Positions 1,415 through 26,566 of a stretch of DNA of 36,478 nt are shown one piece after another. Made by a program: the position numbers and the translations under genes. Source of the DNA: Methanothermococcus okinawensis (GTDB lineage: Archaea > AGJL01 > Methanococci > Methanococcales > Methanococcaceae); NCBI GenBank assembly GCA_015662355.1, contig DQUI01000027.1:1-36478 (forward strand). The letters are read 5' to 3'. Under the pieces are notes generated by a model. It searched no databases. It worked only from the letters and a program-made list of their open reading frames with translations, and was not told where the DNA came from. Every line of letters starts with the position of its first letter. The stretch's first letter is position 1.

Positions 1415-1711
1415 TTAAGTTAAACTGAAGTTAGTTGAATTGGAGTTCTGGGAGGATTCCCTTGCATTCTCCCTTGACAATATTCTAACGACTTGAGGTT
1501 GGATCATCTCCTTTTCCCCTTTTTCTATCTCTTTAGAGGTTACTGTTTTAACTGGGGCAGGAGTTACTAATTCATCTCCCCCATCTTTCACTACTTTAGA
1601 AATTTTTTTACCCTTAGCAAATTTACTTAACCCCTTAACACAACCACTGATAGATACCATACCTATAATCAAGACTAATATTATCCCTAGACTAACAAGT
1701 TTTTTATTCAT
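1415..1711 (-). CDS. Small putative lipoprotein, unknown function
   Basis: The predicted protein has 98 residues. It has a lysine-bearing N-terminus, a hydrophobic stretch of about 17 residues and a lipobox-like SISGC with Cys24, so it is probably lipid-anchored outside the membrane. The remainder is short, charged and Ser/Asn-rich at the end, with no recognisable domain. I chose the ATG at 1709-1711 because GGTGA lies five bases upstream; a GTG at 1718-1720 is part of that ribosome site. The gene begins nine bases after the stop of the decayed gene at 1721-2249 on the same strand, so the two may once have formed an operon. I do not recognise a family. Confidence 0.65.
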   Translation of the reverse strand: MNKKLVSLGIILVLIIGMVSISGCVKGLSKFAKGKKISKVVKDGGDELVTPAPVKTVTSKEIEKGEKEMIQPQVVRILSRENARESSQNSNSTNFSLT

Positions 1712-10242: not shown

Positions 10243-10330
10243 CGGCGCCGAGGGGGAATCGAACCCCAAGTTCATAAGAACTGACGGATCTGAAGTCCGC
10301 CCCGTGCCACCAGGCACGGCACTCGGCGCC
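10243..10330 (-). tRNA. selC: Selenocysteine tRNA (anticodon UCA)
   Basis: The minus strand folds into the archaeal tRNA-Sec shape. A nine-base-pair acceptor stem pairs GGCGCCGAG perfectly with CTCGGCGCC. The T stem has four pairs (GGGG/CCCC) with loop TTCGATT. The long D stem has seven pairs (CCGTGCC/GGCACGG) with a four-base loop. The anticodon loop CTTCAGA gives TCA. A long variable arm has stem AGTTC/GAACT. The discriminator is G, and CCA is not encoded, unlike the two arginine tRNAs in the window. It is charged with serine, then converted through O-phosphoseryl-tRNA (PstK, SepSecS) in archaea. Its presence means the organism makes selenoproteins, although none is seen in this window. Confidence 0.96.
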
Positions 10331-24682: not shown

Positions 24683-24928
24683 CTATTTTTTTGGAAGTTT
24701 TACTAAGATTATATTTCCTATAGCCTCTACAACTCTATAGGGTATAACTACCTTCTTAGAGGGATCGTCTACCTTGTCCTTTAAACATCCCCTGTATACG
24801 TCACTTACCACTATACCACTTACTACAGCCTTGTCAGTATCTATCATGGCGTCGTAGACCTCTCCTACGTAATAACCTTGTGTGGTGTAGATCTTTTTAT
24901 TGAGGATCTCACTAACTTTAATTGCCAT
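24683..24928 (-). CDS. PRC-barrel domain protein
   Basis: An 81-residue single-domain protein with the PRC-barrel pattern. It starts with [20 protein letters not shown], then has [17 protein letters not shown] and a C-terminal [16 protein letters not shown]. Small PRC-barrel proteins are common in methanogens; they are thought to mediate protein or RNA contacts, and no enzymatic residues are seen. AGGGGAT lies four bases before the ATG. It is located between nadX and the C/D box sRNA, all on the minus strand. Confidence 0.82.
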
Positions 24929-24950: not shown

Positions 24951-25015
24951 ACCTGTCAGACAGTGCCGGTTTCATCATCTCTTAGATCAGTGGGGGTAAC
25001 TCTCATCATCCAGGT
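24951..25015 (-). ncRNA. C/D box sRNA with two 12-nt guides
   Basis: The minus strand shows every part of an archaeal C/D box methylation guide. In order these are terminal stem ACCTG, box C ATGATGA (25003-25009), guide GAGTTACCCCCA (24991-25002), box D' CTGA (24987-24990) and an 8-nt spacer. Then come box C' ATGATGA (24972-24978), guide AACCGGCACTGT (24960-24971), box D CTGA (24956-24959) and closing stem CAGGT. Both guides are exactly 12 nt. By the D+5 rule, the methylated bases would be the fifth G of target UGGGGGUAACUC and the U of target ACAGUGCCGGUU. It starts six bases past the guaB stop on the same strand, so it may be cut from the guaB transcript. Targets could not be checked here. 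Confidence 0.9.
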
Positions 25016-25021
25016 TTTATT

Positions 25022-26566
<1,545 letters not shown>

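Follow-up and report, generated by a model that had tools for sequence, protein, structure and literature searches.

Known guides and target sites

According to passages of Grosjean et al. (2008, PMC2584109), the 23S rRNA of Haloarcula marismortui has only three 2'-O-methylations, one of which is the Gm at position 1950, corresponding to E. coli 1909. For Gm1934/Gm1950 the same passages predict a C/D box guide in Haloferax volcanii, of which 25 archaeal genomes have homologues, and for base 1909 they suggest the Pyrococcus orphan sR41. Helices 68, 69 and 71 are named as methylation hotspots in part of the text of Dennis et al. (2015, PMC4644070), and a survey of seven archaea reported no methylation site common to all (PMC7994747).

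The window, that is, the whole stretch of 36,478 nucleotides analysed here, contains a C/D box guide sRNA at positions 24951–25015 of the minus strand, with its 5' end at 25015. We consider it to be, with a probability of about 93%, a double-guide C/D box sRNA for the 2'-O-methylation of 23S rRNA at G1909 and U1841 (E. coli numbering), probably carried in the tail of the guaB mRNA. Like the guide predicted in the cited passages of PMC2584109, it has E. coli 1909 as target base and an identical mechanism, and our analysis finds a box C and D' guide of the window type in halobacterial genomes as well; the second (D) guide, in contrast, differs outside the Methanococcales. The resemblance to Pyrococcus sR41 lies in the target base proposed in those passages alone. 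The target and mechanism of the window sRNA are already known, as very probably is its family. Added here are this genome's copy and, judged from complementarity, the putative designation of U1841 as the target of the second guide. The initial annotation, which presented the locus as a guide RNA lacking annotation, was right about its identity; in kind the RNA is no novelty, given the 2008 predictions of Gm1909 guides in 25 archaeal genomes. With its identification, an intergenic RNA acquires two exactly defined predicted targets for methylation, both in the part of the 23S rRNA at the subunit interface.

Anatomy of the guide RNA

The sRNA is 65 nt long and reads, from 25015 to 24951 on the minus strand, ACCUG-G-AUGAUGA-GAGUUACCCCCA-CUGA-UCUAAGAG-AUGAUGA-AACCGGCACUGU-CUGA-CAGGU. 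The terminal stem is formed by the 5' arm ACCUG (25011–25015) and its partner, the 3' arm CAGGU (24951–24955), with compensatory changes among relatives. Box C (AUGAUGA, 25003–25009) is invariant throughout the order and is followed by the D' guide GAGUUACCCCCA (24991–25002), aimed at G1909, and by box D' (CUGA, 24987–24990). The spacer between boxes D' and C' (UCUAAGAG, 24979–24986) is a K-loop of 8 nt in the window copy and a hairpin in some relatives. Box C' (AUGAUGA, 24972–24978), the D guide AACCGGCACUGU (24960–24971), aimed at U1841, and box D (CUGA, 24956–24959) complete the molecule; all these elements are on the minus strand. The four boxes agree with the archaeal C/D sRNA class, which has RUGAUGA as box C, CUGA as boxes D' and D and a UGAUGA-like box C', and five pairs, with covariation, make up the stem that closes the K-turn. 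The perfect boxes, the 12-nt length of both guides and the five-pair stem, all proposed initially from the letters of the DNA, are confirmed, and the proposed identity as a methylation-guide sRNA is supported by the boxes, the stem, conservation and the placed 23S targets. The minimum free energy of the whole RNA (z = -0.13 for the window copy) is uninformative, because the guides of C/D sRNAs are single-stranded.

Conservation and database matches

Homologues were collected by a DNA search within the genus, aligned and turned into a covariance model (R1), which gives the window sRNA 91.5 bits. The R1 survey covered 36 Methanococcales genomes, the phylum-wide search consisting of the same 36, and the sRNA is present in 35 of them; the exception, G010, has a weak match only and is a genome that is 54% complete. 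The core of the D' guide, AGUUACCCCC, is invariant in 35 genomes. The window sRNA is a real gene conserved across the order, a deeply conserved guide, contrary to the common view that guides turn over fast.

In the terminal stem of the relatives, 91% of cells are paired and three of the five pairs have changed on both sides, while none of 500 stem shuffles reached the observed paired cells or covariation score. Since related sequences can beat shuffles without structure, slid controls are the better comparison for the stem, and these contained 0 pairs altered on both sides. The window has a single copy of the complete box motif, and 100 order-2 Markov windows have none. No match to the window sRNA was obtained in a plasmid collection.

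Among the Rfam families, sR12 (RF01147), with 38.2 bits, marginally exceeds its gathering score of 38, and snoPyro_CD (RF00095) reaches 39.3 bits, below its gathering threshold of 45. RF01147 resembles the window sRNA in the arrangement of its boxes and in the larger part of the D guide (GGCACUGU ahead of box D); its consensus D' guide is different, the alignment needs an insertion, and most genus homologues of the window sRNA score below threshold. The match thus reflects a common layout and D guide and does not prove a shared origin, the D' guide being different. Taken as a whole, the window sRNA is real and well supported and is of an ordinary kind, belonging to a known family of guide RNAs.

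A second C/D-like sRNA, with a related C box and different guides, is located at about 1472–1531 (minus strand) of locus L012 in the relative G007, and similar, weaker R1 matches are found in several other genomes. The D' box is degenerate (CGGA, CCGA or CTAA) at loci L057 (G002), L041 (G012), L044 (G018) and L048 (G017), with the adjoining guide intact.

Targets in 23S rRNA

The 90 contigs of the host assembly contain neither 23S nor 16S rRNA, so targets were read from the 23S rRNA of relatives, using the 24 for which both the sRNA and 23S were available. In these, the rRNA search suggested along with the annotation gave a properly placed target for each guide. The predicted bases at the fifth position, G and U, held up as G1909 and U1841; the literal 12-nt target sequences did not, being absent from the relatives' 23S, where about 10 of the 12 positions pair for each guide, the predicted modified base included. 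The class is characterised by guides of about 8–12 nt, complementary to rRNA or tRNA, whose fifth nucleotide counted from box D or D' faces the target base, and both guides fit this on the 23S of all 24 relatives. Shuffled guides produced 10-nt pairings for both, no more than 100 nt apart, in 2 of 20,000 trials. In the 16S rRNA of four relatives no target of comparable length is present, and a single 9-nt pairing with the D' guide occurs in one species. None of the 35 predicted tRNAs of the window and loci has a target with at least 8 pairs.

The D' guide forms 10–11 pairs with helix 69 (GGGGGUAACU) in 24/24 genomes tested, and its fifth nucleotide faces a base that aligns with E. coli G1909 in that helix, the base equivalent to Gm1950 of H. 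marismortui in the cited passages of PMC2584109. The D guide pairs over 9–11 nt with CAGUGCUGGU, also in all 24; its target in the relatives is CAGUGC(U/C)GGU, invariably 53 nt upstream of the D' target, and the rRNA base that faces the fifth nucleotide of the guide corresponds in the alignment to E. coli U1841. The fifth-position pair of this guide is kept in all 24 genomes. Guide and rRNA covary between families at one pair, involving the eighth target position of the D guide: in the Methanocaldococcaceae a C in the rRNA faces a G in the guide; in the Methanococcaceae a U in the rRNA usually faces an A in the guide, and G001 retains the G and so forms a G-U pair. The D guide of the window species also has a G there, and its pairing at U1841 may include a G-U pair. 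We found no direct evidence in the literature of Um1841 for any archaeon.

Protein partners and proposed mechanism

The genes for fibrillarin and Nop5 lie side by side on contig C52 of the host genome, which also encodes two L7Ae-family proteins, so that the L7Ae, Nop5 and fibrillarin expected for the class are all encoded. Anatomy, targets and protein genes agree and point to a working guide, which would be expressed, processed and used for methylation in the host organism. The terminal stem with boxes C and D would form a K-turn and boxes C' and D' a K-loop, each of which would bind L7Ae; L7Ae would then recruit Nop5 and fibrillarin. The D' guide, placed on helix 69, would direct 2'-O-methylation of G1909, and the D guide, 53 nt upstream, that of U1841. 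The sRNA is probably carried in the tail of the guaB mRNA and trimmed free once the proteins protect it.

Genomic context

On the minus strand, the sRNA is flanked by guaB (25022–26515), which encodes IMP dehydrogenase (PF00478, E 2.5e-152) and is the probable source transcript, and, downstream, by the gene for an 81-residue PRC-barrel protein (24683–24928, PF05239, E 1.6e-11). It starts 6 nt past the guaB stop codon, as first described, and ends 22 nt ahead of the PRC-barrel gene. The order guaB, sRNA, PRC-barrel gene is found in six members of the genus, the window species among them; in five of these six the first base of the sRNA is at, or at most one base from, the guaB stop, the 6 nt of the window species being the remaining case. 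In two further members the sRNA is found 42–64 nt past guaB with other genes downstream; elsewhere in the order its neighbours are other genes. Inspection by eye of the 3' end of guaB in the guaB-linked species revealed no conserved TATA-like box. Archaeal C/D sRNAs commonly overlap or adjoin the 3' end of a gene and mature from a longer transcript (PMC7994747); release of the sRNA from the guaB mRNA is plausible.

A selenocysteine tRNA gene is also located in the window, at 10243–10330 of the minus strand (Rfam tRNA-Sec, 66.4 bits), which points to selenoprotein synthesis in the host archaeon.

Alternative readings

The part of the main reading that concerns U1841 has one competitor of some weight, in which the D' guide alone directs methylation, at G1909, and the D guide serves as an anchor or chaperone that bridges the helix 68–69 region and leaves U1841 unmethylated. 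In most genomes the D pairing is shorter towards box D, with one or two mismatches beside the box, other Euryarchaea have an unrelated D guide, and chaperone roles for double guides are proposed in part of PMC4644070, all of which would suit such an anchor. The fifth-position pair kept in 24/24 genomes and the covariation elsewhere in the duplex argue against it, and we consider it rather unlikely. The D guide of the window species might also have shifted to a 23S site near U1012 (UAAGUGCCGGUU), with which it can form ten uninterrupted Watson-Crick pairs, a pairing as long as that at U1841. Two mismatches adjoin box D at this site, however, and in comparable relatives the pairing through the fifth base covers only 3–9 nt there against 9–11 nt throughout at U1841, which makes the shift very improbable.

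Other explanations concern the element itself. It could be a K-turn in a guaB-PRC transcript, bound by L7Ae to control both genes, instead of or besides guiding methylation; the tight guaB linkage in eight genus members would fit this, and L7Ae-dependent regulation in archaea is suggested in a portion of PMC5539422. Elsewhere in the order the neighbouring genes are different and the guides are nevertheless conserved, so a regulatory element of this kind is scarcely credible. That the motif is a chance resemblance we regard as negligible, considering its absence from the Markov windows, the stem covariation, the order-wide conservation and the pairing of guides with targets.

Spread of the G1909 half and the D'-C' spacer

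A scan of GTDB genomes for the exact box C and D' guide, a fixed query and hence blind to the rate of loss, returned at least 119 stretches, of which 80 were examined in full (L059–L138). Most of the 80 are from Methanomicrobiales; Methanosarcinales (Methanohalophilus, Methanolobus), Halobacteria (Halonotius, Haloquadratum) and Methanococcales also occur. Among the matches listed, the D guide is unrelated outside the Methanococcales; in Methanomicrobiales, for instance, box D is preceded by GCAGGGG. The same G1909 half combined with differing D guides indicates that this half is very widely conserved and that its partner changes. One contig, L105, is labelled as an Ignavibacteriae bacterium and carries the archaeal sRNA in its Methanomicrobiales form; it is probably a mis-binned archaeal contig.

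The spacer between D' and C' measures 3–11 nt in the window species and in the Methanocaldococcaceae, and 14–41 nt in 13 genomes, which come from the Methanococcus-type genus (g2), some members of the window's own genus (g1) and a third genus (g3), all under provisional genus and family names. Twelve of these 13 long spacers contain a hairpin whose stem starts directly after D' and stops one nucleotide before C', the geometry of the terminal K-turn, and the types of pair in this stem vary between species at nearly every position. K-loops are the usual archaeal form (PMC3608112), and in Pyrococcus sR26 the K-loop has been swapped for an engineered K-turn, for stability (PMC7089733). This construct is an engineered parallel of the hairpin-capped C'/D' of the relatives; it differs in being artificial, and the window's own copy retains a short K-loop. 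In a limited literature search we found no report of a natural conversion of this type, of which the present series would be an instance and thus the natural counterpart of the sR26 swap.

We give even odds to a history in which an ancestral half (box C and the G1909 guide) was kept across the Euryarchaea, the partner guide was exchanged, and the K-loop became a hairpin-capped K-turn in the Methanococcus-type relatives. If true, a single family would combine an exchange of guides with the change from K-loop to K-turn, the window copy being the plain form. In the homologues of relatives at loci L032, L035, L038, L050–L052 and L054–L058, the spacer is 23–41 nt long and its hairpin abuts both D' and C' in K-turn geometry.
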